A stretch of 45,536 nt of DNA from Lachnospiraceae bacterium (GTDB lineage: Bacteria; Bacillota_A; Clostridia; Lachnospirales; Lachnospiraceae). Positions within the stretch are counted from its first letter, which is position 1. Each line of letters begins with the position of its first letter. Location of the stretch: assembly GCA_024683935.1 (NCBI GenBank), contig JAIKXV010000096.1, positions 1-45,536 of the forward strand, read 5' to 3'. Of this stretch, positions 2,239-42,972 are shown one piece after another. Under the pieces are notes generated by a model, which was not told the origin of the DNA, made no database searches, and saw nothing but the letters and a program-made list of their open reading frames with translations. The position numbers and the translations under genes were made by a program.

Positions 2239-3428
2239 AGGAACCCTCCCCTTTCCAGCTTTTCCGTAAACAAAAGCTCATTTTTCTTCCTGAGCCTCGA
2301 TCCCTGATATGAATAAAGAGTGCTGCAGGTGATCTCCCCGTCCTCATAACCTGTGATCTCCACTATCTCCAGAACCTTACGGCTCTTATCCCGGAGCCTC
2401 CCGAGATGTACTATGATGTCCACCGCGGAGGCTATCTGTCTCCGGATCGCTGCAAGGGGCAGATCCATTCCCGCCATGAGCACCATCGTCTCCAGCCTCG
2501 AAAGCATATCCTTTGCGGAATTGGCGTGGCCCGTTGAAAGACTCCCGTCATGGCCTGTGTTAGCGGCCTGGAGGAAGTCAAAAGCCGCGCCGTCTCTTAT
2601 CTCACCAACTATGATCCGGTCAGGTCTCATCCTCAGGGACGATTTTATAAGGTCCCTCATGGTCACCGGGATACAGCCTTCCACGTTTGCGTTTCTGGTT
2701 TCGAGGCTCACCAGGTTCGGTATTCCCTGTATCTGCAGTTCGGCCGAATCCTCTATCGTTATGACTCTGGTGTCCTCCGGGATAAATGATGACATAGCGT
2801 TTAAGAATGTGGTCTTTCCGCTGCCGGTGCCTCCTGAAACAAAGATGTTGTACCCGCTTATCACCAGCTTTTTCAGGAATTCCACCACCTCCGGGGTGAT
2901 GGAGCCGAAGCGGATCAGATCCTCCATTTTTATCGGACTGTCCGGGAACCGCCGGATGGTGATTATGGGGCCGTTAAGTGCCACGGGATTCATGACTATA
3001 TTTACTCTGGCTCCGTTTTCCAGCCTGGCATCCACAATGGGAGAGGCCTCATTTACCACCCTGTTGGAACCCGCTGCTATCTGCTGGATAACGTCATTCA
3101 GGCTTTCCTTTGATTCGAAGCGCTTGTCCCAAAGGCTTAAACATCCGTCTCTTTCGATGAAGATGTTCTCCGTGCCGTTTACCATGATCTCCGTCACATG
3201 CGGATCGTCTATCAGGCTCTGTATCACGCCCTTCTTTCTGATGGAATCGAAGAGCTCGTGCATCAGTCTGCGCTTCTCTTCGAGACTTAAGAAGGTTCTC
3301 TTTCCCGCGGAAAGTATGGCGCAGTTTATGATCTCCTCTATCTCCTCATCACTTACTTCCCTTGAAAGATCAATATCTCTCAGTATGGCGTCGTGGAGCT
3401 TTGTCTTTATTTCCGTAAGGTTTTTCAT
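2235..3428 (-). CDS. tadA: TadA/CpaF pilus secretion ATPase
   Basis: A 397-residue member of the VirB11/CpaF branch of type II/IV secretion ATPases. Visible motifs are a Walker A GGTGSGKTT at residues 199-207, an Asp-box segment TIEDSAELQ (224-232), a Walker B region RIIVGEIRDG (271-280) and a His box TGHDGSLSTGHAN (291-303). The N-terminal 170 residues carry the usual CpaF signatures, such as DPHVTEIMVNG and the R-V-N motif. It should hexamerise on the cytoplasmic face and energise Flp pilus assembly through TadB/TadC. Its ATG overlaps the stop of the TadZ-like gene as ATGA. Length and motifs are complete. Confidence 0.95.
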   Translation of the reverse strand: MKNLTEIKTKLHDAILRDIDLSREVSDEEIEEIINCAILSAGKRTFLSLEEKRRLMHELFDSIRKKGVIQSLIDDPHVTEIMVNGTENIFIERDGCLSLWDKRFESKESLNDVIQQIAAGSNRVVNEASPIVDARLENGARVNIVMNPVALNGPIITIRRFPDSPIKMEDLIRFGSITPEVVEFLKKLVISGYNIFVSGGTGSGKTTFLNAMSSFIPEDTRVITIEDSAELQIQGIPNLVSLETRNANVEGCIPVTMRDLIKSSLRMRPDRIIVGEIRDGAAFDFLQAANTGHDGSLSTGHANSAKDMLSRLETMVLMAGMDLPLAAIRRQIASAVDIIVHLGRLRDKSRKVLEIVEITGYEDGEITCSTLYSYQGSRLRKKNELLFTEKLERGGFL

Positions 3429-4402
3429 AGTGCCCTCACAAAGTCGCCCATCGGAGAATCGGACAGACTGTAGAGATTTCCGTTCAGCTCATTCATAAAG
3501 GGAATGCTGATCTCCCTGGTCTTTTCAAGGATCTCACCCAGCTCCATTATGCGGAGCATGGCTTCGTACTGCTCGATCTTTGCCTTTGAAACCGTATCCT
3601 CCCTGACCGGCATGTATATCGTCCTCGCGGCCTGCAGTATATCCAAAAATCCGCTTATCGAGTCGGACAGATCCACCACTATCTTTGAGTAATCACAGCC
3701 GCAGAGTTCATTAAACAGGATGACCCAGGTTTCGCGGCTGACCGACAGTATATCGAGAGGCGAGATCACCGGAGGTACATAGTCCAAAAGTCCCGCCTTT
3801 TCCACCATGCTGGCCAGCTTACAGGGAAAATTCCTTTTTTTCTGATCGATGTAAAAGAGAAGATCGGATAAGTCGCTCATAAAATTATTCTGCAGGAGCT
3901 GGTTAAATCCCGAGTATTCTTCAAGGTTCATATACAGCACCTTTTCCTTCTCCGCCAGAACCTCTCCCAGTGCGAAGGCGAAGGATGTTCTGAAGCTCCG
4001 TCTGATGGGGGAATAAACCACGATCATCTCGGTACTTACACTGCTGATGAGTCCTGTTTCCAACATGGGCTGTTCGGCGTAGTAGCACATCACTTCCCGC
4101 ATGATATTTTCCGATGACTGGTATTTGCAGATGGATTTATGTCCCTTTCCGTCCCTTGCCCCGTCATTCTCTGACAGGACCATCATCTCTCCGGTCTCGC
4201 AGGCTTCAATGTCATCATCCAGGTCATCCTCGGGGATCAGAAGGATGTCTATGTCATTTCCCCTGATGTAATCCTTCAGCAGCTCCTTGTCCGTAAAGCC
4301 CTGTATCTCCAACGGAACCGAACGGCAGTCATTCATATAGCTCATCAGTTTTGTTACGTACTCTTCATCCGGATCAAATACCGCAAGTGTGTTTTTCTTC
4401 AT
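3425..4402 (-). CDS. TadZ/CpaE-like pilus localisation protein with degenerate P-loop
   Basis: 325 residues. Residues 1-65 look like a receiver-type fold (an acidic DPDEEY near the N-terminus and a hydrophobic DIDILLIPEDD strand). From about 125 on there is a ParA/MinD-like fold as in TadZ/CpaE. The expected P-loop reads VVYSPIRRSFRTSFA at 129-143 and lacks the Gly-Lys-Thr/Ser core, so ATP binding is doubtful. Members of this family with altered Walker motifs are known, and in other bacteria they act as polar hubs for the pilus ATPase. It sits between the prepilin peptidase (10-bp gap) and tadA (ATGA overlap). It could also be a diverged two-domain response-regulator relative. Confidence 0.75.
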   Translation of the reverse strand: MKKNTLAVFDPDEEYVTKLMSYMNDCRSVPLEIQGFTDKELLKDYIRGNDIDILLIPEDDLDDDIEACETGEMMVLSENDGARDGKGHKSICKYQSSENIMREVMCYYAEQPMLETGLISSVSTEMIVVYSPIRRSFRTSFAFALGEVLAEKEKVLYMNLEEYSGFNQLLQNNFMSDLSDLLFYIDQKKRNFPCKLASMVEKAGLLDYVPPVISPLDILSVSRETWVILFNELCGCDYSKIVVDLSDSISGFLDILQAARTIYMPVREDTVSKAKIEQYEAMLRIMELGEILEKTREISIPFMNELNGNLYSLSDSPMGDFVRAL

Positions 4403-4412
4403 TTCTCTCCCT

Positions 4413-4826
4413 TCAGATGCTCATTAATATCCCAAGGCTTACCGGCAGTGCCATCGGGATCCTTATCCCTTTTATCTTTCCTGTCCTTACCGCCATAAAG
4501 AGAAGGAGAAGTACGCTGAATGCCGTGACGGGTATCAGCGACTCTTTAAGAACCTCGTGTCCCGTATAGACTGCAATGGACATTATGAATTTGATGTCCC
4601 CTGCCCCTAAGTATCCCCCTGCGTAGAAAACATACAGCAGGGCAAATACCAGAAGGGCCGAAAGGATTCCGTCAACCGCCCCCTCTATGCCTCTCTCCAA
4701 AAAGGCAAAGACAAGACCCAGTACAAAAAAGAAAACATTTTGAAGATTATCAATGTAACGTGCTCTCAGATCTGTAAGGGATGCTGCGATGAGGAACATG
4801 AAAAGAACCGGTCTTCCCATAATCAT
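4413..4826 (-). CDS. Prepilin peptidase (A24 family, TadV/CpaA type)
   Basis: A 137-residue polytopic membrane protein of the short A24A type, without the N-terminal methylase half of PilD. The two catalytic aspartate sites are visible: the Asp in LTDLRARYIDN (about residue 18) and the GxGD motif in YLGAGDIKFIMS. It should cleave the leader of Flp-type prepilins such as the one at 2-67. It is the first gene of the tad operon. Two near-equal starts, ATG and the ATG two codons later, follow a modest GGCGG ribosome-binding site. No clean promoter was identified in the 110 bp upstream. Confidence 0.88.
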   Translation of the reverse strand: MIMGRPVLFMFLIAASLTDLRARYIDNLQNVFFFVLGLVFAFLERGIEGAVDGILSALLVFALLYVFYAGGYLGAGDIKFIMSIAVYTGHEVLKESLIPVTAFSVLLLLFMAVRTGKIKGIRIPMALPVSLGILMSI

Positions 4827-5712: not shown

Positions 5713-6162
5713 TCAGCTGCTGAACATATAGGCAACCGTGATCTTTCCGTTGCCGACATAGCTGGAGATCCCTATGCGGGTATACTCACCAAAGACCATG
5801 TTATCATAATGCGCCGGGGACGCTACCAGATTGTCGAACATGATCTTTGAGGCCTCTTCAACATCCTCTGTTTCTCTCACGTAGGAAAGGTTCTCGCCCT
5901 TCCACTTGTTTCCGGGGATCATCTTAACGCCCTGCTCTCCGTTCGGCCTGGTATGGCTCCACTTTGAAGAAGCCTCCTTCGAACGGATATTGGCAATCGA
6001 AATAAGGCTGCTGTCTATAGCCAACGCCTTCAACCCCTGGGATGCCCTAAGCTCATTGATATTCTGCAGCATGGCATTATTAACAGCGTTAGTATTAACT
6101 GCATATGCATCAACGCTAAAAAGCATGGTAAATAGAATTACCATGAAAAGCAATTTTCTCAT
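5713..6162 (-). CDS. Secreted CAP/SCP-domain protein under riboswitch control
   Basis: 149 residues. The N-terminus is a signal peptide (MRKLLFMVILF..., likely cut after VDAYA at about residue 21). The rest is a single small CAP domain: a helix with MLQNINELRASQGL, a KWSHTRPNGEQ segment, a GENLSY motif and a final beta strand ending near GKITVAYMFSS. Bacterial CAP proteins of this kind are exported, but their biochemical roles are mostly unknown. The start at 6160-6162 has GGGGGA upstream; an in-frame ATG at 6192 is inside the riboswitch aptamer and is not a sensible start. The leader carries its own promoter and a c-di-GMP-I aptamer, so expression should follow cellular c-di-GMP. Confidence 0.88.
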   Translation of the reverse strand: MRKLLFMVILFTMLFSVDAYAVNTNAVNNAMLQNINELRASQGLKALAIDSSLISIANIRSKEASSKWSHTRPNGEQGVKMIPGNKWKGENLSYVRETEDVEEASKIMFDNLVASPAHYDNMVFGEYTRIGISSYVGNGKITVAYMFSS

Positions 6163-6183
6163 CGAAAGTCCCCCGTAACAGAG

Positions 6184-6261
6184 GAACTGCAACTGGCTGC
6201 CTCATAAAGGCCCTATAGTTTTGCGCCCCCGTGTTGCCACGGGTTTGCCAATGTACAGTTC
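6184..6261 (-). promoter_or_regulatory. c-di-GMP-I (GEMM-I) riboswitch aptamer
   Basis: Read on the minus strand, the leader shows GGCAAACC, then a hairpin CCCGTG-GCAA-CACGGG with a GNRA tetraloop. These are followed by GGCGCAAAACTATAGGG, a small GCCT/AGGC hairpin and AGCCAGTTGCAG. The order matches the GEMM-I consensus. The closing stem P1 can form from GAACTG (6256-6261) and CAGTTC (6184-6189). The base before CAAACC is G, the residue expected for c-di-GMP rather than the A seen in the cGAMP-preferring variants. It lies directly between a promoter and the CAP gene, about 20 nt before the start codon. Confidence 0.9.
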
Positions 6262-6303: not shown

Positions 6304-6765
6304 CTATACGGAAAAACCGCGGTTTCCGGGGGCTACATTATTACTGATCCCGGATCTGCCATAGGTAAGTCCGGAATAGACGGTTTCTATGTTTTTCATC
6401 TCCGGGCCGGAACTGTCCTGATCGGCAATCTTTTCAAAGGCGTCATGAAGCTGGGTAAGGAGCTTCTCTGCTTCATCCAGCACCTTTGTGTTATTGCGGA
6501 TCATCGCTTTGTCCAGCAGCAGGGAAATGTAGTTATAGATCCTGTACAGATAAAGGGCGATCTCCTGGGAGTAGTCAAGGACTCCCCTCAGCTGGTCTAT
6601 GCAGCTCTTCGCATGCTGTATGCCCCGGGTCAGCTCGTCCCGGTCCGCAGCATTTTTCGCGTCTTCCAGATATGTTAAAGCAAGTTCATAGGTCAGGACT
6701 ACTATCCTCGTCCTGTTTGCCTGTGAGATCCTGAGGGTAAATTCTTTCTTCTTTTCGTCAGTCAT
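6304..6765 (-). CDS. fliS: FliS-like flagellin export chaperone
   Basis: 153 residues, mostly helical, with the pattern of FliS: an N-terminal RISQANRTRIVVLTYELAL helix, a LTRGIQHAKSCIDQLRGVLDYSQEIALYLYRIYNYIS core and a C-terminal VLDEAEKLLTQLHDAF helix. FliS binds the C-terminus of flagellin in the cytosol and prevents polymerisation before export. It lies 27 bp downstream of flagellin in the same direction, with AAGGAGG nine bases before the ATG, and should share the flagellin transcript. The N-terminus lacks the usual Y-x-x-x-x poly-Q start, and the last 25 residues (GRSGISNNVAPGNRGFSV) look disordered. Confidence 0.85.
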   Translation of the reverse strand: MTDEKKKEFTLRISQANRTRIVVLTYELALTYLEDAKNAADRDELTRGIQHAKSCIDQLRGVLDYSQEIALYLYRIYNYISLLLDKAMIRNNTKVLDEAEKLLTQLHDAFEKIADQDSSGPEMKNIETVYSGLTYGRSGISNNVAPGNRGFSV

Positions 6766-6792
6766 CTATGGGTCCCTCCTTATGACAAAACG

Positions 6793-8130
6793 TCACTGTA
6801 TCAGCTGAAGTGCCTGCTGCGGCGCCTGATTCGCCTGCGCCAGCATGGATGTGGCCGCCTGGACCAGTATCTGCTGGCTGGCATAATTGGTCATCTCCTG
6901 CGCCATGTCGGTATCCTGTATACGGCTCATGGAAGCGCTCAGGTTCTCATTTGATGCTGCGATATAGCTGATGCTGTGCTCCACACGGTTGGTGTAGGCA
7001 CCGATCTGAGCCCTGGCACTGGAAACATACTTAAGGGCGTAGGTTACTCTGTCGATACTCTGCTGGGCGCTGGTCTTGGTCGTCATATTGAGATTATCGA
7101 TATCCAGTCTTTCCAGGCTGATCTTGGGGAGAGAGCATTCCACAACCTCTTCCTCATTGGCGCCTATATGGAGATCCATTGCTCCCTGGCCGGTGAGGGT
7201 GATATTGAATACTAAACCTGATATATTCTTGTAATCATTGACTTTATTACCCTCTGTATCCTTTGTCGTTATCTGCTTGCCATCACCGTCTAACTGCTGT
7301 GTCAGCCGCTTATCAAGCCTGAGATTTATTTCCTCTCCGTTATTGCCTCTTAAGGTGAGATACTGGGTTCCGTCCTCGCATATCTTTACATACCCATCCT
7401 GCTTGGCATCTTCTCCTTCTCTTCCGTATGCTCCTTCCGTAACCCAGGTCCCATTGTAATTCTTTACGCCTGTCGGATCATCCTGATACATAAGTTCCGG
7501 ATCAAGATATTTGGGATATGACATTTCTTTCAGATCTGCTTTTATCACAGGTTTGCCATCCGTTGTTTCAATCGTGGCGTTGATCGTAAGAGAATGGCTG
7601 CCCGGATCAAATGTCTCTGTTAGAGTCACCTTATACTTTCCTGCATTCATCTTATCGTTATACTCTTCGATCTGAACAAGCTTATTATCATCACAGTACC
7701 CGTGATTCTCCAGATGTCCGTCCAGAAGCTTCTGTCCGTTAAGCTCTATCTGCTCTGAGATTCTCTGTATCTCATTGGTGAGCTGTTTCACCTCCTGCTG
7801 TATATCAGCTCTGTCGCTGGCAGACATGGTACCGTTGCTGGCTTTGATGGACAGCTCATTTAATCTCTGAAGCATATCGGTAACTTCATTCAGAGCTCCG
7901 TCAGCAGTTTCCAGTACGGATTTTCCCGTGGTGGCGTTTACGTCTGCTCTTTCAAGGGCTGCCAGCTGCTGGCGCATTCTTCCTGAAATAGCGTAACCCG
8001 TGGGGTCATCCCCTGCAGTATTAATCTTGTATCCTGATGAAAGCTTTCCCGTAGAAAGAGAAAAGGCCGACTCGTTACGAAGAAGGACGTTATTTGTAAT
8101 GATGGCTGTAAGATTACTGTTAATGTGCAT
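6793..8130 (-). CDS. fliC: Flagellin
   Basis: 445 residues, the main filament subunit. The conserved D0/D1 halves are clear. The N-terminus runs MHINSNLTAIITNNVLLRN, then LSSGYKINTAGDDPTGYAIS and NEIQRISEQIELNGQKLLDG. The C-terminus has AQIGAYTNRVEHSISYI, then SRIQDTDMAQEMTNYASQQILVQ and ANQAPQQALQLIQ. The middle (about 150-345) is a variable, beta-rich, surface-exposed domain with no similarity I recognise. The ATG has GGAGG seven bases upstream. A SigD-type promoter lies 140 bp upstream, inside the 3' end of the preceding gene, whose last 11 bases overlap this start. fliS follows. Confidence 0.97.
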   Translation of the reverse strand: MHINSNLTAIITNNVLLRNESAFSLSTGKLSSGYKINTAGDDPTGYAISGRMRQQLAALERADVNATTGKSVLETADGALNEVTDMLQRLNELSIKASNGTMSASDRADIQQEVKQLTNEIQRISEQIELNGQKLLDGHLENHGYCDDNKLVQIEEYNDKMNAGKYKVTLTETFDPGSHSLTINATIETTDGKPVIKADLKEMSYPKYLDPELMYQDDPTGVKNYNGTWVTEGAYGREGEDAKQDGYVKICEDGTQYLTLRGNNGEEINLRLDKRLTQQLDGDGKQITTKDTEGNKVNDYKNISGLVFNITLTGQGAMDLHIGANEEEVVECSLPKISLERLDIDNLNMTTKTSAQQSIDRVTYALKYVSSARAQIGAYTNRVEHSISYIAASNENLSASMSRIQDTDMAQEMTNYASQQILVQAATSMLAQANQAPQQALQLIQ

Positions 8131-24152: not shown

Positions 24153-24942
24153 AACCTTCTCCTTTTAAAATATTCTCCAAAGCGTGCTCAACCGTATCCG
24201 TATGGTACTTTCCCATGACCCTGATACTTTCTACAGCGCTGTCCATAGCGACGGGACAGCCTGCCATTTCCAGCATTTCCCTGTCATTCTCATTATCTCC
24301 GAAACAGAGCACGTTTTCCGGATCTATACCGAGCCGGTTCAGTACCTTGGACAAAGCAAGTCCCTTATGTACTCCGGGGGGCATGAAATCCAGCCACTCC
24401 GCCCCGCCGGTAACCACTGTGCATTTATTTTCGAAACTCTTTTTCCAGCCGCTTATCTGCTCCTCCGTGAGTCCGGTTTTCACATAGGCCGAGATCTTGA
24501 AAAAGGGTTCCCTCTTTACCCTGATATCCGCCACCCGCGTCACGTCGTTACGAACAGTGAAACGCATATGTTCATAATAACTCTTATCCCGGTCTGCGAT
24601 ATAGCAGGTATTTATGCCGGAAACCAGAACCTCAGCTCCCTCCACTGCTTCTATGGCGTCTATTATATCCATCGCCAGATTGTCCGTCATCTCCTCACAG
24701 CTTATCATCTCGTCATCAAGGAAGGTGACGCAGCCGTTCTCACAGATATAGCCGATCTCCCGCGCTACCGGCGAAAACAGCCTTTTCAGATTCCCGTACT
24801 GCCTTCCGCTGGCGGCCAAAAACATGATACCTCTCTCCGTAAGCCGGTGGATGAGGCCCGGTGCGGAAGCCGATAATTCCTGGCTTCCGTTTAAGAGCAG
24901 CGTTCCGTCCAGGTCGCTTGCAATCATTTTCAGTCTGCTCAT
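24142..24942 (-). CDS. Cof-type HAD-superfamily phosphatase
   Basis: 266 residues with the HAD motifs I (MIASDLDGTLL, Asp nucleophile at about residue 9), II (FLAASGRQ), III (a Lys in HKGLALSKVL) and IV (CFGDNENDREML). It has the C2-type cap (about 85-185) of Cof/YidA proteins. These hydrolyse sugar phosphates or phosphorylated cofactors, and substrate cannot be read from sequence. It has a promoter 15-40 bp upstream and AGGAGAC before the ATG. It is divergent from the GGDEF gene. Confidence 0.92.
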   Translation of the reverse strand: MSRLKMIASDLDGTLLLNGSQELSASAPGLIHRLTERGIMFLAASGRQYGNLKRLFSPVAREIGYICENGCVTFLDDEMISCEEMTDNLAMDIIDAIEAVEGAEVLVSGINTCYIADRDKSYYEHMRFTVRNDVTRVADIRVKREPFFKISAYVKTGLTEEQISGWKKSFENKCTVVTGGAEWLDFMPPGVHKGLALSKVLNRLGIDPENVLCFGDNENDREMLEMAGCPVAMDSAVESIRVMGKYHTDTVEHALENILKGEGYEW

Positions 24943-24956
24943 TTTTTGTCTCCTAT

Positions 24957-24984
24957 TTTATACATAATAACCTATATCCCTCAA
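24957..24984 (-). promoter_or_regulatory. Promoter of the HAD-lipoprotein unit
   Basis: -35 TTGAGG (24979-24984), a 16-bp spacer and -10 TATAAA (24957-24962) on the minus strand. Confidence 0.6.
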
Positions 24985-25015
24985 AAAAAATATATATTTT
25001 TTCGTCTTTTTGTAT

Positions 25016-25021
25016 TATAAT
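25016..25021 (+). promoter_or_regulatory. Possible -10 element for the GGDEF gene
   Basis: A perfect TATAAT, with no convincing -35 in the T-rich stretch upstream. It is only 10 bp from the chosen ATG, which would make the mRNA leader nearly absent. Confidence 0.4.
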
Positions 25022-25031
25022 TATCGTAATT

Positions 25032-26120
25032 ATGGTCTTCATTCAGAAAATCAAAAACTTTATAACAATGGATGTGGCTGATGAGAACGAAACCAAAAAA
25101 GCCTCTGTTATAATGCGCTGTACTTCCATTGTTTTGTTTGTCTTCTTTGCCATTCAGGTTTTTGTTCTGTTTTTCAGAGGCTATCCCCGGGGCGCCATCA
25201 TCAGTATGGTATGTCTCCTCGGTTATCTTGCCGCTTTTTGCATGACATATCAGGGATACACCGCCATAACCCAGCACTTTATTGAGATCCTTACCCTGGG
25301 CTGGGTTGCCGCCTTTGTCGCCATCATGGGCTGGGACTGCTCATATCAGCATATGATCTTCTCCCTTATGCTCTTTTCCATTCTGACCTCGTATCAGACT
25401 GTACTGTATAAGGCGCTTTTCGCCTCTTTCATATGTATTTTCAGAATTCTGCTCTATTTCTATATTCATACCCATCCGTCTTTTTATACTGTAGATCACG
25501 GGACTCTGCATCTCCTTAATATACTGAATACGTTCTTTACATTTTTACTCTTTTTTATCATATCCGTTCTTTTCTCCAAGGATTCCATGCAGATGGAAGA
25601 AAAGCTGGTGAAATATAATAAGAAGATAGAAAAGCTGGCAAAGACGGATGCCCTGACAAAGCTTCCCAACCGCCGCGATGCGCTTGAACGGATCGAAAAG
25701 CACCTGAAGAGATCAAAGGATCCCGACTTTTATTTGGACATTGCCATCGGGGATATAGACTTCTTCAAAAATGTCAATGATACCCACGGACATGAGGCCG
25801 GCGATGCGGTTCTCGTGCAAATGGCCAATATTATAAAGGAACATATGGGCGAAGACGGCTTCGTGGCCAGATGGGGCGGCGAAGAATTCCTCTTTGTATA
25901 CACGCATATGAACGGCGATGAAGCTGCCCTGAGACTGAATGACCTCAGGACAAAAATATCCCAGACCGTATTCAAATATAATACGATCGAGATGAAGCTC
26001 ACGATGACCTTCGGTCTTCAGGAATATGATTTCCACAATTCCATAGATGATGTCATCAATTCAGCCGACGAAAAATTGTACTACGGAAAGACCCAGGGAA
26101 GAAACCAGGTGGTATTTTAA
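25032..26120 (+). CDS. Membrane-bound diguanylate cyclase (GGDEF)
   Basis: About 362 residues from the chosen ATG. Roughly six N-terminal hydrophobic helices (about residues 28-185) are followed by a short coiled linker and a GGDEF domain from about 205. The active-site motif is RWGGEEF, with TDALTKLPNRRDA and GDIDFFKNVNDTHGHEAGD upstream, so catalysis of two GTP to c-di-GMP is expected. The inhibitory RxxD I-site is not present before the active site (the residues read GEDGFVAR). No ribosome-binding site precedes the ATG, and a TATAAT lies only 10 bp upstream, so translation may be leaderless. A riboswitch for its product sits at 6184-6261. Confidence 0.9.
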   Translation: MVFIQKIKNFITMDVADENETKKASVIMRCTSIVLFVFFAIQVFVLFFRGYPRGAIISMVCLLGYLAAFCMTYQGYTAITQHFIEILTLGWVAAFVAIMGWDCSYQHMIFSLMLFSILTSYQTVLYKALFASFICIFRILLYFYIHTHPSFYTVDHGTLHLLNILNTFFTFLLFFIISVLFSKDSMQMEEKLVKYNKKIEKLAKTDALTKLPNRRDALERIEKHLKRSKDPDFYLDIAIGDIDFFKNVNDTHGHEAGDAVLVQMANIIKEHMGEDGFVARWGGEEFLFVYTHMNGDEAALRLNDLRTKISQTVFKYNTIEMKLTMTFGLQEYDFHNSIDDVINSADEKLYYGKTQGRNQVVF

Positions 26121-26452: not shown

Positions 26453-26893
26453 TCACTTTACATTCAGTTCGGGCATCAGCTCCGATTTGATTATCTGCAT
26501 CATCGAATCCAGATCCTCCAGTTCCTTTTCGGAGAATCTTTTTTTACACCTTTCTACCACCGTATTGATGTAATCCTGACTGATCCTGTAGTATTTCATA
26601 TACTTTTCCGTAGGACAGAGGTGATATTCCCTCTTGTCATTTTCGGACTGCTTTTTTTCTATATATCCCTTTTTAACGAGGCTGTTTACCTTGTATGCAG
26701 CATTGGGACTGGAGATCCCCATAAGGTGCGCGAATTCCGACACCGTAGGCCCTCCTAAGTATTTGATGCATTCCATGGAGAAGGACTCCACCGCAGTCAG
26801 GGTGGCCTCCTTTGTCTCAAACTTGGAATATATCTGCATATAAAAATAAACTCTCAGTGCACTGTATAGATCATTCATGGATTGACTCAGCAT
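26453..26893 (-). CDS. fabT: FabT-like MarR-family regulator of fatty-acid synthesis
   Basis: 146 residues with a MarR winged helix: a helix GPTVSEFAHLMGISSPNAAYKVNSLVKKGYIEKKQSENDKREYHLCPT, visible in parts over about residues 47-95, flanked by dimerisation helices. FabT represses fab genes and is stimulated by acyl-ACP in related Firmicutes. The start is the ATG at 26891-26893, two bases after the fabZ stop with GGAG upstream; an ATG 18 bases earlier is inside fabZ. Unusually it is the last gene of the operon, not the first. The 45-bp palindrome at 34321-34365 is its likely operator. Confidence 0.82.
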   Translation of the reverse strand: MLSQSMNDLYSALRVYFYMQIYSKFETKEATLTAVESFSMECIKYLGGPTVSEFAHLMGISSPNAAYKVNSLVKKGYIEKKQSENDKREYHLCPTEKYMKYYRISQDYINTVVERCKKRFSEKELEDLDSMMQIIKSELMPELNVK

Positions 26894-26894
26894 A

Positions 26895-27347
26895 TTACGC
26901 TCCGATGGCAAATGTGAGTTCTGCCCTGCAGGCCAGAGCTCCGTTTACTCTTGCTTCTGCTTTTCCGGTACCCACCGGTCCCTTCTGCTCGGTTATCTCA
27001 CAGTAAAGCTCCAGTACATCTCCGGGCTCCACCTGTTTTTTGAATCTGGCATTTTTGATACCTCCGAAGAAAGCGATCTTCCCCTTATTTTCCGGAAGGG
27101 AAAGCATGGCCACGGCTCCGGTCTGGGCCAGAGCTTCTATTATAAGCACTCCCGGCATCACCGGATGTCCGGGGAAGTGGCCCTGGAAAAACTGCTCGTC
27201 CATGGACACACATTTTCTCCCTCTGGCCCATACTCCGGGCTCATAATCCTCTATCCTGTCCACCAGGGCAAAGGGATATCTGTGAGGCAGTATCTCCGCT
27301 ATCTCCGCTGCTGTCAGTGTTTTCGGCTCTCTTTCCTGTTCGCTCAT
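26895..27347 (-). CDS. fabZ: 3-hydroxyacyl-ACP dehydratase FabZ
   Basis: Dehydrates 3-hydroxyacyl-ACP to trans-2-enoyl-ACP. 150 residues in the hot-dog fold, with [12 protein letters not shown], the catalytic His57 in [13 protein letters not shown] and Glu71 in [11 protein letters not shown]. It starts four bases after the fabF stop. It is the only dehydratase in the window; no FabM or FabN-type isomerase is present here, so how unsaturated chains are made is not shown. Confidence 0.95.
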
Positions 27348-28604: not shown

Positions 28605-29372
28605 TTATGCTCCCATGCCTCCGTCAACTCCGATAACCTGTCCGGTGATATAGGCTGCCTCATCCGATGCGAGGAATGCTGCCAGCGCTCCCACTTCTTC
28701 AGGTCTTCCCGCCCTCTTTAAGGGTATGGCTTTGACGGTGCTCTCTATGGCTTTTTCGCTCATCTTCTTTGTCATATCGGTATCTATATAACCGGGTGCT
28801 ATGGCGTTGACCGTGATCTTCCGGCTGGCCAGCTCCTTCGCGAGACTCTTTGTCAGACCGATGACCGCAGCCTTGCTGGCGGAATAGTTGGTCTGTCCCG
28901 CATTTCCCCGGATGCCTACTATGCTGGCCATGTTTATTATCCTGCCGTAGCGGCGCCGCATCATGAACTTTGCAGCCTCCCTGCAGCAGTAGAAAGTACC
29001 CTTGAGATTCAGATTCATAACCGCTTCGAAATCCTCGGTCTTCATATTGAGAATAAGGCCGTCTCTGGTAATGCCTGCGTTATTCACCAGGATATCCAGG
29101 TGCCCCAGCTTTTCCTCGGCAGTCTTTATAAGATTTACTGCGCTCTCTTCATCTGACACATCCGTCTGCTCGATGAATACCGGGAGATCCATATCGGTGG
29201 TGGCACAGAGCATGGCTGCCTCCTCAGCGGCATCCACATTTCCCGAATAATTGATCATCACGGGATGGCCTGCTTTAGCAAGGGCTATGGCCACGGCTCT
29301 TCCTATGCCCCGGCTGCCTCCCGTAACAAGCGCACATCTTTTTTCTGTCTGTTCCAGCTCTTTTTCCTTCAT
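28605..29372 (-). CDS. fabG: 3-oxoacyl-ACP reductase
   Basis: NADPH-dependent reduction of 3-oxoacyl-ACP. A 255-residue short-chain dehydrogenase with the cofactor motif TGGSRGIG (17-24), the NNAG motif, the catalytic Ser in INMASIVG and Y-x-x-x-K in NYSASKAAV, and the FabG-like C-terminus ITGQVIGVDGGMGA. The first 11 residues (MKEKELEQTEK) are a short extension. The ATG is one base after the fabD stop (TAAGATG). Confidence 0.95.
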   Translation of the reverse strand: MKEKELEQTEKRCALVTGGSRGIGRAVAIALAKAGHPVMINYSGNVDAAEEAAMLCATTDMDLPVFIEQTDVSDEESAVNLIKTAEEKLGHLDILVNNAGITRDGLILNMKTEDFEAVMNLNLKGTFYCCREAAKFMMRRRYGRIINMASIVGIRGNAGQTNYSASKAAVIGLTKSLAKELASRKITVNAIAPGYIDTDMTKKMSEKAIESTVKAIPLKRAGRPEEVGALAAFLASDEAAYITGQVIGVDGGMGA

Positions 29373-34398: not shown

Positions 34399-36603
34399 CT
34401 ATTTTTTATTCTTACGGCCCGGGCGTCCAAAGTGCTGCAGCTCTGCGCTGATCTCCGCCAGCAGTTCACTGCGGGAATCCGCTGCCCCGGCGGCTTCCAT
34501 GGACTCCAGCTCTCTCCTCAGTTCACCCGACAGGATTCTGAGTTCCTTTAACTCAGCTCTGCATTCCTTAAGAAGAGCTGCCCCGTCACCGGATGATCCG
34601 GATCCGTTCTTCAGCTGCTCCTCCGCCTCGGTGAATTTCGTTCTGGCAGCCTGCAGGCTTTCCTTCTGGCCCGCAGCGTAACCCTCCAGTCCCTGCATGA
34701 GGGTATGGGTTTTTTCAAAATCGGAATTCAGCTTGTCAACGGTATCGCTTATTTCCTGTACGGATCTTTCCGTCTGCTCTGCAAGTCTTGATATCTCTCC
34801 GGCTACTACCGCAAAGCCCCGTCCCGCTTCGCCTGCTCTGGCGGCTTCTATGGAAGCATTGAGGGACAGCAGGTTGGTCTCGCTTGCCACATCGGCTATT
34901 ATAGTCGCGGCCTTATTGATATCCTTTACGGATTCACTGGTTTCATCCAGCTGTTCCCTGATATCTTCAATGCTGCTGCCAAGAGCCGCTCCCGACTTGT
35001 CGAGATTGGTAAGCTCTTTGGAAGCATCCTTCATTGCAGCGCCCTCCGGCCGTCCCGGTCCGGATACTCCCTCAGTTCCTTCCAGCGCGGAAAGACTGTT
35101 CTCCGCAGAAGCGATCTTTTCCTCTATTCTTTCGATGCAGTTCTTAAGTACCGACGTATCCTGCGCTGCAGAAGCTTCCGTATCGGCTATCCTCTTTCTC
35201 AGCGACTCGGAGCTTTTTTCAACGGCTGCCAGATCCTGCCGCAGTTCTATATTTTCCTCATCACGGACGCGGTCCGAATCAGCCTTCTCTTTTCTTACGC
35301 TTTCGCTCTCCCTGATCTTCCTTCTCCCGGAGAGCTCCGTAATAAAGAGCAGCGCTATCATTGCAAGGGAGAAGAGTGCACAGATCACTATGGCAGCAAC
35401 TGCTCCGCCATTGCCCGTTTCCTCATCTGAGGTTCCTGCTCCGGCGGGAACGGGCGTCACAGGAGCTTTATCGTCCTTTTCATCCTTGCCTTCGGCTTTT
35501 TCTTCACCCTCTTTTGTATCCCCGGCATTCTGAACCGAGGCCTCTCCGGTTTCACTGTCAGCGCCTGTCACCAGCGCTTCCTTTTTATCTAAGGCTTCCC
35601 CGATCCGGATCACCAGTGGATCCGTTTCCGGGAAACGGGAGATTTCCTTCCGCATATCTTCTATGGCTGATAATACATTGCTCTCCGCTTCCTTCGTATC
35701 CTGACCCGCTGCCGCCTTGCTGCGGAATACTGCAAATGCTTCATTTATCTTATCGAGAGCGGGATCAGATTCTTCCCTGCCGGCGAAATCACAGCCGGTT
35801 ATAAAGTTCAGCCCGGAATCGGTTCCTTCAAAATAAAGATCATAATAAACGGTCTTGAATTCCGAAGAATCCATTCCCTTTAAGGGCAGGACGATGCTCA
35901 CCTTGTCCGTGTCGCTGTTTCCCGTAAATACGGTGTCGCAGACTATGCTGCTCTCCCCGTTCAGGGCCGCCGTCCCCACAGATCTCAGGGCTCCTCCGTG
36001 GCCGGTAGACAGATCTTCTTCTGTCAGGGATGACAGATCCGGTATCTTATCGTCATCAAATTTTAAGCCGGTTAAATATACCTTTCCTTCGTAGCTGCCC
36101 TCCGTTCCGTTGATACGGATAACGGCGCTGTCTCTTCCCGCGGGCCTGTCGAAGCTTCCGGTAAACCTAACCCTTCTGCCCTCTCCGTCATTCAGCTTAA
36201 CGGTCTCCATATTCCGGAGATCCACTTTTATCCTGTAATTCTTTACCAGGTCGGGCTCATCCCGGGTAAGGGCAGTAAGCGCCTTCCTTATTTCCCCGTC
36301 AGATGAAATGAATTCGGAATACAGAGTTACTTCCTCTGTATGGGGCTCAGGCACTGCCTCCGTTTTGGCGGCTTCCTTCTCCTTCTCTGCCTTATCTGCA
36401 GCCTCGTATGCCTCAGCCTCTCTTGCACTGCTCTCTGCCAGCGCAGAAACGTATGCAGCAACTGCCGCCTCCGATTCCGAAGCGGCTTTTTCCGCCTTTC
36501 CTGCCCTGTTGATCCAGCAGATGCAGGTGATGGCAAGAATGATCACTCCGACCAGCGCAGCTATTGTAATTAATGTGGATTTTAATCCGCGGCCTTCTTC
36601 CAA
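34399..36603 (-). CDS. Methyl-accepting chemotaxis-like transducer with unusual ectodomain
   Basis: 734 residues from a TTG start with GGGGAGAG upstream. Helix 1 is at about 9-31, with a long extracellular part (32-398) that begins as an Ala/Glu-rich coiled coil. A beta-rich domain follows (about 110-275, for example [29 protein letters not shown]), then a helical pair and a low-complexity stalk. Helix 2 is at about 399-422. No HAMP domain is visible. A coiled coil leads to the MCP signalling tip [38 protein letters not shown], seen in parts at about 576-613, and the hairpin is shorter than in standard MCPs. It is the last gene of the signalling operon; no che genes are nearby. The ectodomain fold is not recognised. 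Confidence 0.85.
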
Positions 36604-36616
36604 AATCTCTCCCCTT

Positions 36617-39600
36617 TTATCCCTTCAATTTAGTAAGGATACCATCATAATCAAAAACAGTATACGAACTCTCCAAAGCCTTGAATAACTCCTTATCCCC
36701 TTCCGGGATCTCATAATCACTTAACTTTTCGAAAGCAGTATCCAGCCCGTCGATATCCATATTCTCCGCGGCTGTCCGGATCTCTTCCAGGATCTCCTTT
36801 ATTACTTCCGGTGCCGCTTCCGCCTTGTCTCCGGTGTTCTCCTCCGTAAATACGTCATGAAGAATGGTCTTAAAGTACCTGAATTCCTCCAGGAATTCCG
36901 GAGTCTTCTCCCGGACGAAGTCCACATCCTCATTCTTTCCGGCAAACTCCAGCCTTTCCGCTTCTTTGCTGAGCAAAACAGCACCGATAAGCCTTGCTGA
37001 GCTCTTCAGGGCGTGTACCTTTATCGTGTAATTCTTTATATCGTTCTCATTATAAAATCTTTCGATCTCTTCCGCCTTGTCATCTATGGACTTATAGAAG
37101 ATATTGAGAAGCGGCATATAGGCTTCCACCGAACCGCTGTTATTGATGCCGGTATCCAGGTCTATCTCGTCATAGATCTGAAGTGCCTCAAGGGCTTCGC
37201 CTGCTTCCTCTCCCGCAGTCTCCTCCTTTATCATATCCTCCGTGACATAGCTCACCTTTTCGGGCGGCAGGAAGGAAAGGAACATTTCTTCCAGCTTGGT
37301 TCCGTCCACGGGTTTTGACATATAGTCGTCAAAGCCTGAAGCTATATACTCTTCCCTGGCTCCCGCTATGGCGTTGGCGGTCAGGCATACCATCGGGGTT
37401 TTGACATTCGGATCCGCCGGATTTCCCCGGATATCATGCATCGTCTCGATTCCGTCCTTATCCGGCATCATATGATCCATGAAAATGATATCGTATTTCT
37501 TTGCAGCACTCAGGTCCAGTGCCTCAAAGCCGTTATCCGCAGTGTCTATCTTCACGCAGGTTTGCTTTAATAGGCTCTTGAATACCACCAGGTTCATAGG
37601 ATTGTCATCAACCACCAGCACCTCTACATCGGGAGCGACAAACCTTTCCCTGTATGCCTTTCTCCTGCCCATGCTCTCATGGTAAGCTGTCTCATAATCT
37701 CCAAGCTCTGTCCACTTGGATACTCCCTGTTCCAGGCTGAAGGAGAAGGTGGAACCGCTGCCGTATACACTCTCTGCCCGAAGCTCGGAGCCCATCAGCT
37801 GCAGGAGACTCTGGGTAATATTCATACCGAGTCCCACGCCCGCGATATTACGGTTACGTTTTTCTTCAATACGTTCAAACTCGGTAAACAGTTTTTTCAG
37901 ATCATCCTTCTGTATACCGATACCCGTGTCGGAAACCGAAACCTTAAGCAGGATGCAGTCAGCCGCCTTTTCACACATCTCATATCCCACGCGGATGGTA
38001 ATACTGCCTTTTTCCGTAAATTTCACGGCATTGGTAAGGAGGTTTGAGATAACCTGCTTTATCCTCTTCTCATCTCCAAAGAGATACTTGGGAGTCGCGG
38101 GATCGAATTCCGTTATTATCTTTAAGCCCTTGTCATCCGCACGGGTTCTTACCATGCTGATCATATCGTTCAGGAGATCCGACAGATCATAGAAATCGGG
38201 CCTTATCTCCATATCCCCGGTTTCTAACTTTGAGAAGTCAAGGATATTATTGACGAGGCTCAGCAGAGTATTGCCGGCACTCCGTATGCTTTCGGAATAT
38301 TCCGTAATGCCCGGGTCTTCGCTCTCACGGAGTATCAGCTCATTCATTCCCAAAATCGCATTGATAGGCGTACGGATCTCATGGGACATATTTGCAAGGA
38401 AGGCGCTCTTTGCCCTTGTCGTTTCCTCGGCAATGGCTTTCTCAACCTCGAGCTCCCGAACCATGGTCTTTTCATAGTAGATACAGTTTTCTCTGTGGTT
38501 GAAACCGTTATGGATGGCAGTTGCCATCTGGGAACAGCTCTCATAACCGCAGCAGGTGCAGTTGATCTGTCTGGACTCGGGAGTGATCTTATTCATGCTG
38601 ACGAATATCTTCTCCAGCGCCTCTTCGTCCGGTATCTCATAGCGGCATTCCGCTGATCTGTCGGTATAGCTCCGTAGATAATCCTCTAAATTCAGATGCT
38701 TGAACTGTTCATTAAAATTCTTCAGCCTCTCCGCCGGGGTATCATACCGCGACCAGGCGTCTCCGCTCTCATCCTTCTTTGCCATTTCACGGATATCGAG
38801 AAGCGAATAAAGCGCGTCATCCGTTCTGGACTTTTCGGGATTGACAGCCGTCCCACAGATACAGCCCTTTTCGCAGTTCAGCGCATCTATGAAGAGGAAG
38901 GGCGTCTTCGTATCCTTTATCCTGTCCGCATTCTGGTGCATCCATTCATAAAGGCGGCGCTCACCTTCTATCTGTCTGATATAAACCTGATCTCCCAGGA
39001 ACCATCTCACGTTTTCCGCCAGACCGCCGGGCGTCGGATAAAAGAGTCCCAGACCGTATTCGATATCGGTGTGGATCCCCTCGCCCTTGATGTTGTGGTC
39101 CCGCACATACTTCATCAGATGCTCAAAGGTCACATTATACTGAACCAAACCGGCATTCTGGGGATCTTCCATTTCCATTTTCTTGGCGATACAGGGGCTT
39201 ACAAAGGCCAGCTTATCCGTAACCCCCATCTCTTTTCTGGCGTAGATCGCCGCACACATAAGCGGGCTCTGCACCGGGAAAAGCTTCGGCAGGAGCTCCG
39301 GCAGGTATCTTTCTATATATGAAACAACCGCCGGACAGGGCTGGGAAATACCGCCAAGGAAATTGTGTTTTTCAATATAATTTAGATAGCCCCAGGTGGT
39401 AATGTCGGCACCGAAGGACACGCTGATGATACGCCGTATGCCCTGCTTCCTCAGGCCTCCGAGTATTCCCGCATATTCCTCGGGAAAATTCGCTCTGAAT
39501 GCGGGCGCTATCAGCAGAGATATCTTCTCTCCCTTCTTCAGGTCTTCAAAGAAGCGCTCAGTGTCATCTTCAAATTCGCGGGCACCGTGAACACATACAT

Positions 39601-39760
39601 CAATGCAGCTGCCGCATGCCACACATTTGGTGCCGTCAACCTCTATCCGCGCCTTTCCGTTTTCCTCCGTGGAAATACAGGCCCCTATGGCGCTGCAGAC
39701 GTTAATGCATTTATTGCACCCTATACAGTTATCATTTGTATAAACTATACTTCCGCCCAT
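36617..39760 (-). CDS. Hybrid histidine kinase with an [FeFe]-hydrogenase-like iron-sulfur sensor
   Basis: 1047 residues, soluble. Residues 1-60 carry two 4Fe-4S motifs (Cys12/15/18/22 and Cys46/49/52/56). Residues 75-330 resemble the large subunit of [FeFe] hydrogenase: a QPCPAV (Cys142), SPCIAKK (Cys190) and NCEKGC (Cys296, Cys300) set matches the L1/L2/L3 cysteine positions, though L1 and L3 are altered. Residues 400-430 form another Fe-S motif (Cys401, 403, 404, 409, 426). Then come HisKA (His460), HATPase, a receiver (Asp762, Lys816) and HPt (His916). It probably senses redox state, H2 or another gas ligand; catalysis of H2 turnover is doubtful. It lies 10 bp after the lone receiver gene. 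Confidence 0.92.
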
Positions 39761-39770
39761 TTTTTTCCCT

Positions 39771-40136
39771 CTACTTCAGTCTCTCATTAAGGAAGTTTAA
39801 TATATCGTCCTTGGCCGCCGTTTTTAATAAAAAACCGTCGGGTTTCAGATCCAGAAGCTTTACTATCCCCTCTCTGGAATCCATGCCTGTAAGGAAAACC
39901 ACGGGAATATCCTTTGTCGCGGGATCCTTTCTCAGCATTTCCAGAACCTTTGATCCGTCCAGATCCGGCATTTCGTAATCAAGAAGGATCATATCCACTC
40001 TGTGTTTTGATAAGAATTTAATGGCCTTCGTTCCGGCAGTTACCACATCCGTCCGGTATTTATCCCTTATCCATTCCCTCACCATCTTGGCGTAGGAAGG
40101 ATCATCATCAACCAGAAGTATCCTCTTTTTTTCCAC
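39771..40136 (-). CDS. Single-domain response regulator (CheY-like)
   Basis: 121 residues, only a receiver domain. Phospho-acceptor Asp is in ILLDYEMPDLDG, the acidic pair in LLVDDDPS, the Thr/Lys switch residues in VFLTGMD and FLLKTAA. There is no output domain. The start is GTG with GGAGG upstream. Placed between the two hybrid kinases, it is their likely phosphoryl partner through the HPt domains, or a phosphate sink. It could also act on the flagellar motor, but this is only inferred. Confidence 0.92.
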   Translation of the reverse strand: MEKKRILLVDDDPSYAKMVREWIRDKYRTDVVTAGTKAIKFLSKHRVDMILLDYEMPDLDGSKVLEMLRKDPATKDIPVVFLTGMDSREGIVKLLDLKPDGFLLKTAAKDDILNFLNERLK

Positions 40137-40170
40137 CTAATATTCCTCCATCAGGAAACGCTTCTATCCT

Positions 40171-42972
40171 TCACGAATCCTGCAAAAGACTGACAACCCC
40201 GTCATAATCAAAATTACCCGCAGCGTTCTTTATCTTTGAAAAGAGCTCCGCATCCTGCTCCGGTATGCTGTATGCCTCCATATCGGAGATGATCCTCTCA
40301 ATTTCATAGCTGTCCATATCGTCTGCTGCTGTCCGGATCTCACCGTAAACCCTCTTCATAAGCTCAGGGCCGGCTACGGGTTTCTTCTCTGCCGTCCTCT
40401 TTTCTTTATCGAATATCTCTGACAGGACCGGCTTGAATTTCAGGTGATCCTCACGGAAACTCGGATAATGTTTGATGATATAATCCCTGTCTCCGCTCTT
40501 TCCGGCATCCTCCAGCCTCTGCGCTTCATCACCCAGGACCTCCGCTCCGATTATCCGTGCCGAGCTCTTCAGGGCGTGTACCTTTACTGCGAATCCCTTC
40601 CAGTCCTCTTTCCCGTACAGCTTCTCGATATCACCCGAAACCTCATCTATTGATTCATGGAAGATCCGGAGCATGCCTTTGTAGCTGCCGACGGATCCGC
40701 TGTTCTGCAGTCCCTTTTGCCAGTTAATATAGGGACATTCCTTCAGGGCTTTCGGGAGATCTCCTTCATCGGTCCGATCCTCTTCCGCGGGCTCCTCCGT
40801 CCTGCTCATGGAAACCTTATCCCCCGGCAGATACCTGATCAGCAGGTCTTCCAGTTTTTCTGCTTCAACCGGCTTTGAGAGATAATCATTAAAGCCCACC
40901 GAAATGTATTCCTGTCTGGCTCCGCTAATGGCATTGGCCGTTAAGCAGATAACCGGAGTGTCCGTATTCAGACATTTCTCATCCGCCTTCATTTCCCGGA
41001 GGGTCTCTATGCCGTCCTTATTCGGCATCATATGGTCAAGGAATATGATATCATATTTCCTTCTCTCGCTTAAGGAGATCGCTTCATCTCCGCTTGTCGC
41101 CGTCTCGGTCTTAATAAGGGTCTTTTTCACTAAATTCTGAAATACCTTGAGATTCATCATGTTATCGTCCACCACCAGGACGGAAGCATCCGGTGCCGTA
41201 AGCTTCTCATGGTATTTCTCATGATTGATGATATCTTTATGTGAAGCCTGCTTGTAATCGCCAAGGGGCACCCAGTCCACAACTCCCTGCTCCAGCAGGA
41301 ATGAAAAGACGGAACCCTGTCCGTAAACGCTTCCCACGCTGAGTTCGGAGCCCATGAGGTTCAGCAGGTTCATGGATATGCTCATGCCGAGGCCGGTGCC
41401 TTCCACATTTCTGTTCCGGGTTTCCTCTATCCTCTCGAATTTGCTGAAGAGCTTATGCATATCCTCTTCTTTGATACCTATTCCGGTATCAATGACCGCA
41501 ACCTTCAGGATCATCTTTTCCTTTGCCTGCCCTATATGACCGCAGCCTATCCTGAAGGTAACGCCGCCCTTTTCCGTATATTTCACCGCATTGGTCAGCA
41601 TGTTTGTGATGATCTGTTTTATCCTCACCTCATCACCGTGAAGATATCTCGGGGTTTCGGGGTCAAATTCCAGCTTCAGCGACAGGTTCTTTTCCTCTGC
41701 CCTGACAGAGATCATATTTACCAGATCATTTATAAGGGAAGCCAGGTCGTAATCAACCGGATTGATGGACAGTTTCCCCGCTTCTATCTTTGAGAAGTCC
41801 AGAACATCATTTACGAGATTCAGAAGAGTATTTCCCGCGGTCTTTACGTTTTCCGCATATACCAGGATCTCCCTGTCCTCGCTTTCCCGGAGTATCATCT
41901 CGTTCATGCCGAGAACCGCGTTAATGGGCGTTCGTATTTCATGGGACATATTCGAAAGAAAAGCCGACTTTGCCTCATTGGCGGCCATGGCCTGCTCGCT
42001 TCTGATATTGGATTCCATTGCTTCCCGGATCTTTAGCTCCGACCTTCTGATAAGGATAAGGAAGGCGCCAAGGATGATAATGGAAGAGATGATAGTAATC
42101 AGAAGCGGTATACGGAGCTGTGAAAACTCTTCGGTGGCGTCAATCACTGCCACGCAGGTCCACCCATGTTCCAGAGGCATGACATATACCATATAGTCTC
42201 TGCCGCCGTGATCTAAATATGCATATCCGCTTTCGGAGGTTCCGATTATATTCGATATGGCTTTGGAAAGCCGGTCCGTCCCGCTGCTGATATCTGTTCC
42301 TATTAGGGATTTATCCGAATGGGCGATGACCTGGCCGCCTTCATTTATAATATATTCTGCATAGGAAATGCCGTCATGTACGTGTTCCTCTATGATCTGC
42401 TGGAACCTGTCCATCTTCAGGTCGATAGCCACAACGCTTTCCCCGTCTGCCAGAGTCCTGACAATGGTTATGCTGCTTTCTCCGGTCTCCATGTCCACGT
42501 AGGGATCGACTATCACCAGATTGCCGCGTCCCTTTTTCGCCTCTAAATACCAGGGTCTGGTAGTGGGGTCATATCCGGCATCCGGAACCCAGCCCGCGCC
42601 GTCCAGATATTCGCCGTTGATATATGCGTAAATACCGGTAGTATCCACAACCCGGGAATCCAGAACCGCGCTCGTCTCATAGGTGATATAGTCCAGCATA
42701 TCCTGCAGGGAGCGGTTCTCTTTCAGCATGTTATCAAGGGAATAGCCCGTCAGCCGGAGCACATCCACTCCGGACATCAGGTTCTTATCTATCTGATAGG
42801 CTGATTCAATGGCATTGATCCTGCCGTGATCTATGATATCGTTCTTGGTTGCGATATAGAGATTTCTGTAATAGATGGAAACAACGCAGACAAAAAACAC
42901 TATGATCAGGATATACAAAACCTGTCGAAGCGGTGAAGAGCTTCCTTTGAATCTCTGTTCTCTGTGTTCCAT
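40171..42972 (-). CDS. Membrane hybrid histidine kinase with dCache sensor
   Basis: 933 residues. Helix 1 is at about 17-35, the extracellular dCache domain at about 40-285 (contains TTRPWYLEAKK, DPYVDMETGESSITIVR and SLIGTDIS), and helix 2 at about 289-308. There is no HAMP domain. HisKA has His344 in [12 protein letters not shown], followed by HATPase (DTGIGI, GTGLGM), a receiver with Asp646 and HPt with His799. dCache domains bind small ligands such as amino acids or amines; the ligand cannot be named. From HisKA onward it is a close paralogue of the neighbouring hydrogenase-like kinase. It is the first gene of the four-gene operon. Confidence 0.94.
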   Translation of the reverse strand: MEHREQRFKGSSSPLRQVLYILIIVFFVCVVSIYYRNLYIATKNDIIDHGRINAIESAYQIDKNLMSGVDVLRLTGYSLDNMLKENRSLQDMLDYITYETSAVLDSRVVDTTGIYAYINGEYLDGAGWVPDAGYDPTTRPWYLEAKKGRGNLVIVDPYVDMETGESSITIVRTLADGESVVAIDLKMDRFQQIIEEHVHDGISYAEYIINEGGQVIAHSDKSLIGTDISSGTDRLSKAISNIIGTSESGYAYLDHGGRDYMVYVMPLEHGWTCVAVIDATEEFSQLRIPLLITIISSIIILGAFLILIRRSELKIREAMESNIRSEQAMAANEAKSAFLSNMSHEIRTPINAVLGMNEMILRESEDREILVYAENVKTAGNTLLNLVNDVLDFSKIEAGKLSINPVDYDLASLINDLVNMISVRAEEKNLSLKLEFDPETPRYLHGDEVRIKQIITNMLTNAVKYTEKGGVTFRIGCGHIGQAKEKMILKVAVIDTGIGIKEEDMHKLFSKFERIEETRNRNVEGTGLGMSISMNLLNLMGSELSVGSVYGQGSVFSFLLEQGVVDWVPLGDYKQASHKDIINHEKYHEKLTAPDASVLVVDDNMMNLKVFQNLVKKTLIKTETATSGDEAISLSERRKYDIIFLDHMMPNKDGIETLREMKADEKCLNTDTPVICLTANAISGARQEYISVGFNDYLSKPVEAEKLEDLLIRYLPGDKVSMSRTEEPAEEDRTDEGDLPKALKECPYINWQKGLQNSGSVGSYKGMLRIFHESIDEVSGDIEKLYGKEDWKGFAVKVHALKSSARIIGAEVLGDEAQRLEDAGKSGDRDYIIKHYPSFREDHLKFKPVLSEIFDKEKRTAEKKPVAGPELMKRVYGEIRTAADDMDSYEIERIISDMEAYSIPEQDAELFSKIKNAAGNFDYDGVVSLLQDS

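Follow-up and report, generated by a model that had tools for sequence, protein, structure and literature searches.

A Lachnospiraceae operon that may be a local version of a variable phosphorelay built around a hydrogenase-like sensor module

The four-gene operon at positions 34399..42972 (minus strand) of contig JAIKXV010000096.1 (assembly GCA_024683935.1), from a bacterium related to rumen Lachnospiraceae, is probably one local form of a multi-kinase phosphorelay that varies between relatives and is organised around a movable sensory [FeFe]-hydrogenase module of group D type, a reading to which we give a probability of roughly 0.55. The whole stretch of 45,536 nucleotides that was analysed is referred to here as the window. 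A two-input phosphorelay is the most likely mechanism, and motility the likeliest output.

The genes were identified by open reading frame (ORF) calls and Pfam, and all lie on the minus strand. The first encodes a dCache hybrid histidine kinase of 933 aa (40171..42972; dCache_1-HisKA-HATPase-REC-Hpt), the second a lone receiver of 121 aa (39771..40136; REC alone), the third a hydrogenase-like Fe-S hybrid kinase of 1047 aa (36617..39760; Fer4 pair-Fe_hyd_lg_C-FeS-HisKA-HATPase-REC-Hpt) and the fourth a protein of 734 aa resembling methyl-accepting chemotaxis proteins (MCPs), with a TTG start (34399..36603; MCPsignal). Ribosome-binding-like GGAGG, AGGG and GGGGAG stretches could be seen by eye upstream of genes 2, 3 and 4, that of the TTG-started gene being strong. 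The same direction and the gaps of 34, 10 and 13 bp agree with the first-pass annotation, which had been made from the letters of the sequence, as do the domains: both kinases end in histidine phosphotransfer (HPt) domains above the Pfam cut-off (28.0 and 33.1 versus 24.6 bits), the receiver has no output domain, and no DNA-binding domain was seen by Pfam in any of the four genes. The two HPt domains span residues 767–827 of the dCache kinase (40492..40674) and 884–945 of the hydrogenase-like kinase (36926..37111). In both kinases the HisKA, REC and HPt domains retain their phosphorylation motifs, and both show the HisKA-HATPase-REC-HPt order and active His/Asp/His residues of tripartite hybrid kinases; the expected sites are His344, Asp646 and His799 in the dCache kinase, His460, Asp762 and His916 in the hydrogenase-like kinase and Asp53 in the receiver. 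No further kinase, receiver or MCP gene was found among window ORFs of at least 80 aa scanned with eight domain sequences taken from the operon. Pfam searches of 30 other window ORFs, a set that leaves aside, for example, 5713-6192, 26453-27347 and 28605-29372, likewise upheld the claim that no che genes lie near the MCP-like gene.

Alignments and cysteine motifs place the Fe-S sensor module at residues 1–430 of the hydrogenase-like kinase (38471..39760, minus strand). The module keeps every cysteine for four [4Fe-4S] sites, namely two ferredoxin-type clusters, the [4Fe-4S] site of the H-cluster (C142, C190, C296 and C300) and a Cx2Cx4Cx16C motif (C401–C426), and these 16 cysteines are invariant in all covering rows of an 81-row alignment that includes the window. 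When aligned to a solved hydrogenase, Pro141, Ser188 and Leu294 occupy the positions of CpI C299, M353 and M497. The kinase part starts after a short linker behind the module, and no PAS domain was detected by Pfam in this kinase, nor in the homologues checked. Group D (M2e) [FeFe]-hydrogenases are described as having two N-terminal [4Fe-4S] motifs, an H-domain and a C-terminal Cx2Cx4Cx16C, with C299 absent, M353 replaced by Ser or Thr and no PAS domain; M497 is replaced by Leu in HydS of Thermoanaerobacter mathranii (Tam HydS) (PMC8163306). Because the pocket residues, the Cx2Cx4Cx16C motif and the lack of a PAS domain match that description, the module, judged by its residues, bears the signature of the group D (M2e) "putative sensory" [FeFe]-hydrogenases, both in cluster motif layout and in pocket substitutions without a PAS domain.

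To survey relatives, a protein search with the module was carried out, in which 4899 of 7997 scored candidates matched at E 0.001 and the top 120 were listed, along with a scan of GTDB genome contigs, in which 193 places were confirmed. The best 80 of these, mostly from Lachnospiraceae, were kept and make up the 81 rows together with the window; gene calls in these loci are simple longest-ORF calls. The module was followed by a hybrid kinase in 47 rows, an MCP hairpin in 29, a GGDEF domain in 3 and a GGDEF-EAL pair in 1, with the remaining row (L047) ended by its contig edge; these shares lean towards the window's own type, since the 80 loci are the best of the 193 confirmed matches. Directly behind the last cysteine, a stretch of the form N-C-I/V-H/Y-Y/F-x-K was present in the nine junctions inspected, which represent every output type. 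Because relatives carry the same sensor on several different outputs, the module looks like a real, movable sensor. All 47 kinase rows and L044–L047 form one clade (100/99) beside the MCP types. In a tree rooted with group B1 proteins the kinase type nests among the MCP types, so the MCP form may, on these alignments, be ancestral; this is a quick tree with very long outgroup branches, from which six rows, mostly near-duplicates, were omitted. Across a sample of 397 genomes of the family, at least 73 contain the module (E 1e-90, up to four candidates scored per genome; counted as sequence matches, whatever domains lie behind them in their open frames).

The first-pass annotation had let its proposal of a functional unit hang on neighbour conservation, and this proved to be well above background: signalling domains were found in 17 of the 32 genes directly upstream and in 21 of the 30 directly downstream, versus 15 of 275 other ORFs of the same loci. 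The count includes the window, the loci are related to one another, and the background reads low because some of the background ORFs may not be genes. Other frequent neighbours, grouped by clustering with one of each checked by Pfam, comprise a further hybrid kinase, a kinase bearing a DegV domain and a sodium:alanine symporter. The DegV domain, which is of the fatty-acid-binding type, lies between REC and HPt in a hybrid kinase (L025, 15234-18701, and relatives) that recurs in operons of hydrogenase-like kinases.

It had also been proposed that a kinase for an inner Fe-S/H2-type signal and one for an extracellular ligand belong together, and this was borne out: a dCache kinase shares an operon with the hydrogenase-like kinase, or is fused to it, in 7 of the 47 kinase loci, window included, with 2 of the 7 encoding one fused protein. 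The fusion proteins, of about 1500 aa (L028 7610-12169 and L031 7676-12169; P0086 and P0104), occur in two layouts, one in P0086 and the other in P0104/P0118 with loci L028 and L031, and the existence of two layouts in these sequences points to at least two separate fusion events. The two kinases of the window are paralogues, 51% identical over 626 residues. The extracellular dCache_1 domain of the dCache kinase (residues 100–272, 42157..42675, minus strand; Pfam match) aligns with PctA at E 1.5e-12, and the amino-acid-binding motif Y-x4-R-x-W-Y, followed by Y and D, matches PctA Y121, R126, W128, Y129, Y144 and D173, the dCache_1AA motif residues named in PMC10104139.

What the inner module reads is less certain. 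In the genomes of the three nearest relatives (L001, L002 and L003) a paralogous FeS-MCP gene, whose module is about 66% identical to that of the window, adjoins hydE, hydG and hydF, which favours H2 sensing; L076 has the same hydE/hydG/hydF-type neighbours, and the HydE frame in L091 spans only profile positions 102–340. Lysine 193, which occupies what we take to be the position of the cyanide-binding lysine, is conserved in every row. Searches of 42 genomes with the module for HydF and HydG, HydE being outside this genome-wide search, nevertheless found HydF over the cut-off in 20 and HydG in 18 (both in 17, HydF only in 3, HydG only in 1), leaving 21 with neither, which favours a plain Fe-S redox sensor. 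These include 4 of the 9 genomes not marked as metagenome-assembled or uncultured (those of L010, L017, L032 and L078), and a wider count found HydG in 33 of 78 distinct genomes, many of them metagenome-assembled. Genomes with and without HydG do not differ in the cluster cysteines or in the cores of the three H-cluster loops, and acetogen matches classed as C2 were left out elsewhere as not validated hydrogenases (PMC9431212). Possibly, then, the sensor does without an H-cluster, and the four [4Fe-4S] clusters on the hydrogenase scaffold respond to the state of ferredoxin or to the cell's redox state, H2 being sensed at one remove. Against this, the four genomes just named, which lack HydF and HydG, each encode a TSCCP protein (L087, L089, L090 and L093) that passes the NCBIfam cut-off as a group B1 [FeFe]-hydrogenase; either the maturases may have been overlooked or group B1 may also be free of the H-cluster there. 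Retention of group B1 slightly lowers the odds of the cofactor-free reading, which, with the hyd genes beside the paralogue and the conserved lysine, we regard as somewhat unlikely. H2 sensing was rejected as a settled function in view of the 21 genomes, with the four group B1 cases as a caveat. A bolder extension is that the hydrogenase became a general plug-in redox sensor free of its H2-activating cofactor. In Lachnospiraceae of rumen and gut it would then drive chemoreceptors, phosphorelays, diguanylate cyclases or GGDEF-EAL enzymes, with cluster motifs unaltered even where maturases went undetected, and in the present operon its signal would be combined with that of an outer amino acid on a single receiver controlling swimming; taken as a whole, this is speculative and distinctly unlikely.

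Under the preferred reading of a two-input phosphorelay, the module would be reduced by H2 at the H-cluster, where HydEFG are present, or by the reduced ferredoxin pool, and its reduction would shift the linker helix and alter autophosphorylation of His460. Phosphate would pass from His460 to Asp762 and then His916, and the HPt domains of both kinases would hand it to Asp53 of the lone receiver; as both would feed Asp53, the receiver could sum redox/H2 information from inside the cell and an amino-acid signal from outside. More tentatively, the receiver and the MCP-like protein may target the chemotaxis array or the flagellar motor, with the MCP-like protein perhaps docking through its conserved tip. 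Output through the array or motor, as suggested in the first-pass annotation, is plausible given the 29 of 81 sister sensors fused to MCP hairpins, CheW in 41 of 42 genomes of related loci and flagellar genes in the window (flagellin and FliS by Pfam, 6304..8130, minus strand, showing that the organism has flagellar genes), but the output step itself is inferred. The family of the lone receiver is present in 22 of the 47 hydrogenase-like kinase operons, window included; the window's receiver shares 48–61% identity with its counterparts in the 21 others, which are C-terminal receivers on proteins of about 250–325 aa or a receiver of 143 aa.

The MCP-like protein carries an MCPsignal domain with a conserved hairpin tip (residues 541–632, 34708..34983, minus strand), which is its most conserved part and matches the receptor tip in the core signalling unit of E. 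coli chemotaxis. Residues 85–275 (35779..36351, minus strand) are mostly beta strands in the AlphaFold model, and this outer domain belongs to no Pfam family; weak Foldseek matches to carbohydrate-binding modules (E ~0.006) were set aside. The rows of the VIA-align set cover mainly the hairpin, so the outer fold is barely sampled. The protein search covered a capped set of 7993 candidates. By genome search, full-length matches were found in 5 of 49 genomes with the FeS module (E 1e-40), and two further genomes matched in the MCP half alone; at E 1e-60 the family occurs in at least 1 of the 397 family genomes (G001, the centre; up to two candidates scored per genome).

Several observations weigh against the phosphorelay reading. 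Within the closest clade, formed by the window and three relatives (L001–L003), the hydrogenase-like kinase and the MCP-like gene occur together in all 4 loci, and the dCache kinase stands beside that kinase in 2 and the lone receiver in 1, the window, which is also the only one of the 47 kinase loci with the complete set. The earlier expectation that the four genes co-occur as a conserved unit was thus rejected, the more so as the MCP-like gene lacks a nearby kinase, within the stretches examined, in 2 of the 5 non-window genomes carrying it at full length. Receiver-family matches number 5–10 per genome in 11 of 11 genomes, so that the partner choice of the lone receiver is a matter of inference. 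AlphaFold confidence is low in the linker region of the hydrogenase-like kinase: the full-length model has a mean pLDDT of 71 and is poor at residues 1–63 and 415–438, and the continuous helix 428–479 that it contains is a hint only because residues 415–438 are modelled poorly. In addition, unrelated helical bundles reach a Z equal to that of the MCP match, and the usual methylation pattern was found in 0 of 12 MCP-like sequences versus 21 of 29 FeS-MCP proteins. Finally, in G034 and G465, the two genomes with no kinase in the stretch around the MCP-like gene, that gene is followed by accD/fabH-type fatty-acid synthesis genes, either at once or with three ORFs in between. An accD/fabH-type set follows it in the window too, so that its position next to the kinase could be fortuitous. 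The system could accordingly be an ordinary phosphorelay in which the MCP-like gene is a passenger from before fatty-acid synthesis genes that landed behind the kinase in one clade, and the restriction of the kinase/MCP pair to one clade of four fits this. The pair is, however, kept in L001–L003 with gaps of 51, -11 and 43 bp, no fab gene was recognised behind it in the short stretches examined there, and related sensor modules are fused to MCP hairpins; the passenger explanation deserves serious weight, with the odds moderately against it.

The expanded receiver family was seen in G001, G002, G003, G004, G010, G012, G017, G024, G027, G031 and G037, mostly on open frames of about 260 aa, several of which adjoin genes with REC-HPt or kinase ends.

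A different output, c-di-GMP or another receiver-controlled enzyme rather than the motor, is suggested by REC-GGDEF proteins that share an operon with the FeS kinase in L009, L010 and L013, by the 4 of 81 modules fused to GGDEF or GGDEF-EAL, and by a separate GGDEF gene in the window (24861-26120). The window operon itself is without any such gene, and we consider this output improbable. The module-GGDEF fusions lie at L044 1927-4074, L045 9989-12073 and L046 3273-5399 and the GGDEF-EAL fusion at L059 9890-12595, the GGDEF domain of the last being without the signature letters; H2 or redox control of c-di-GMP is possible in these proteins. The stand-alone GGDEF gene is on the opposite strand and overlaps a neighbouring HAD hydrolase ORF by 82 bases. 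Elsewhere in the window, genes for T2SSF, T2SSE, TadZ-like and prepilin-peptidase proteins (143-4826) resemble a Tad pilus cluster, and promoter and terminator scans gave 15 and 12 candidates versus 11.6 and 8.9 in shuffled sequence, a difference of about one standard deviation.

How group D "sensory" hydrogenases transfer a signal without a PAS domain is posed as an open question, and their sensing role is put forward as a hypothesis (PMC8163306, PMC13104023). Direct fusions of the module to four kinds of output through a common short linker make both directly testable. Fermentation H2 feeds methanogens in the rumen (PMC6776011), and rumen bacteria able to adjust their kinases or their swimming in response to H2 or redox state would, if this is true, bear on methane control. 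A specialist would not expect the output swapping, the dCache fusions or the occurrence in genomes without detected maturases. No paper on any of these three points was found in searches of the open-licence literature, and the titles and opening lines of abstracts there held nothing on hydrogenases with GGDEF domains.

Among described systems, Tam HydS (PMC8163306, PMC13104023) shares with the module the two N-terminal [4Fe-4S] motifs, the H-domain, Cx2Cx4Cx16C, the lack of a PAS domain, the absence of C299, Ser for M353 and Leu for M497. In the sections of those papers that describe it, Tam HydS is without a fused output domain and is flanked by a gene for a kinase-like ATPase, whereas the present module is joined directly to its kinase and, in relatives, to an MCP, GGDEF or GGDEF-EAL part. 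The kinases resemble the tripartite hybrid kinases BarA, TorS and ArcB in domain order and active residues, but differ in the sensor module and in having a single-domain receiver as the only response regulator of the operon. PctA and other dCache_1AA domains (PMC10104139) show Y-x4-R-x-W-Y, Y and D in matching order; here the domain, with its predicted amino-acid ligand, sits on a hybrid kinase. With MCPs the fourth protein shares the conserved CheA/CheW-type hairpin tip, as judged by alignment, but it is without the usual methylation pattern, has an outer domain outside Pfam and has few relatives found. The first-pass annotation knew of no described system of this composition, which may hold in detail; HydDB, however, lists [FeFe]-hydrogenase groups C1 (histidine kinase-linked) and C2 (chemotactic), both as putative sensors (PMC5037454), and since kinase-linked and chemotactic forms are thus already catalogued, the system is best seen as a variant within a known class. 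Compared by description, C1 and C2 likewise link a hydrogenase-type domain to a histidine kinase or an MCP, but here a single gene family with a group D-like pocket has both outputs, together with dCache fusions and c-di-GMP outputs.
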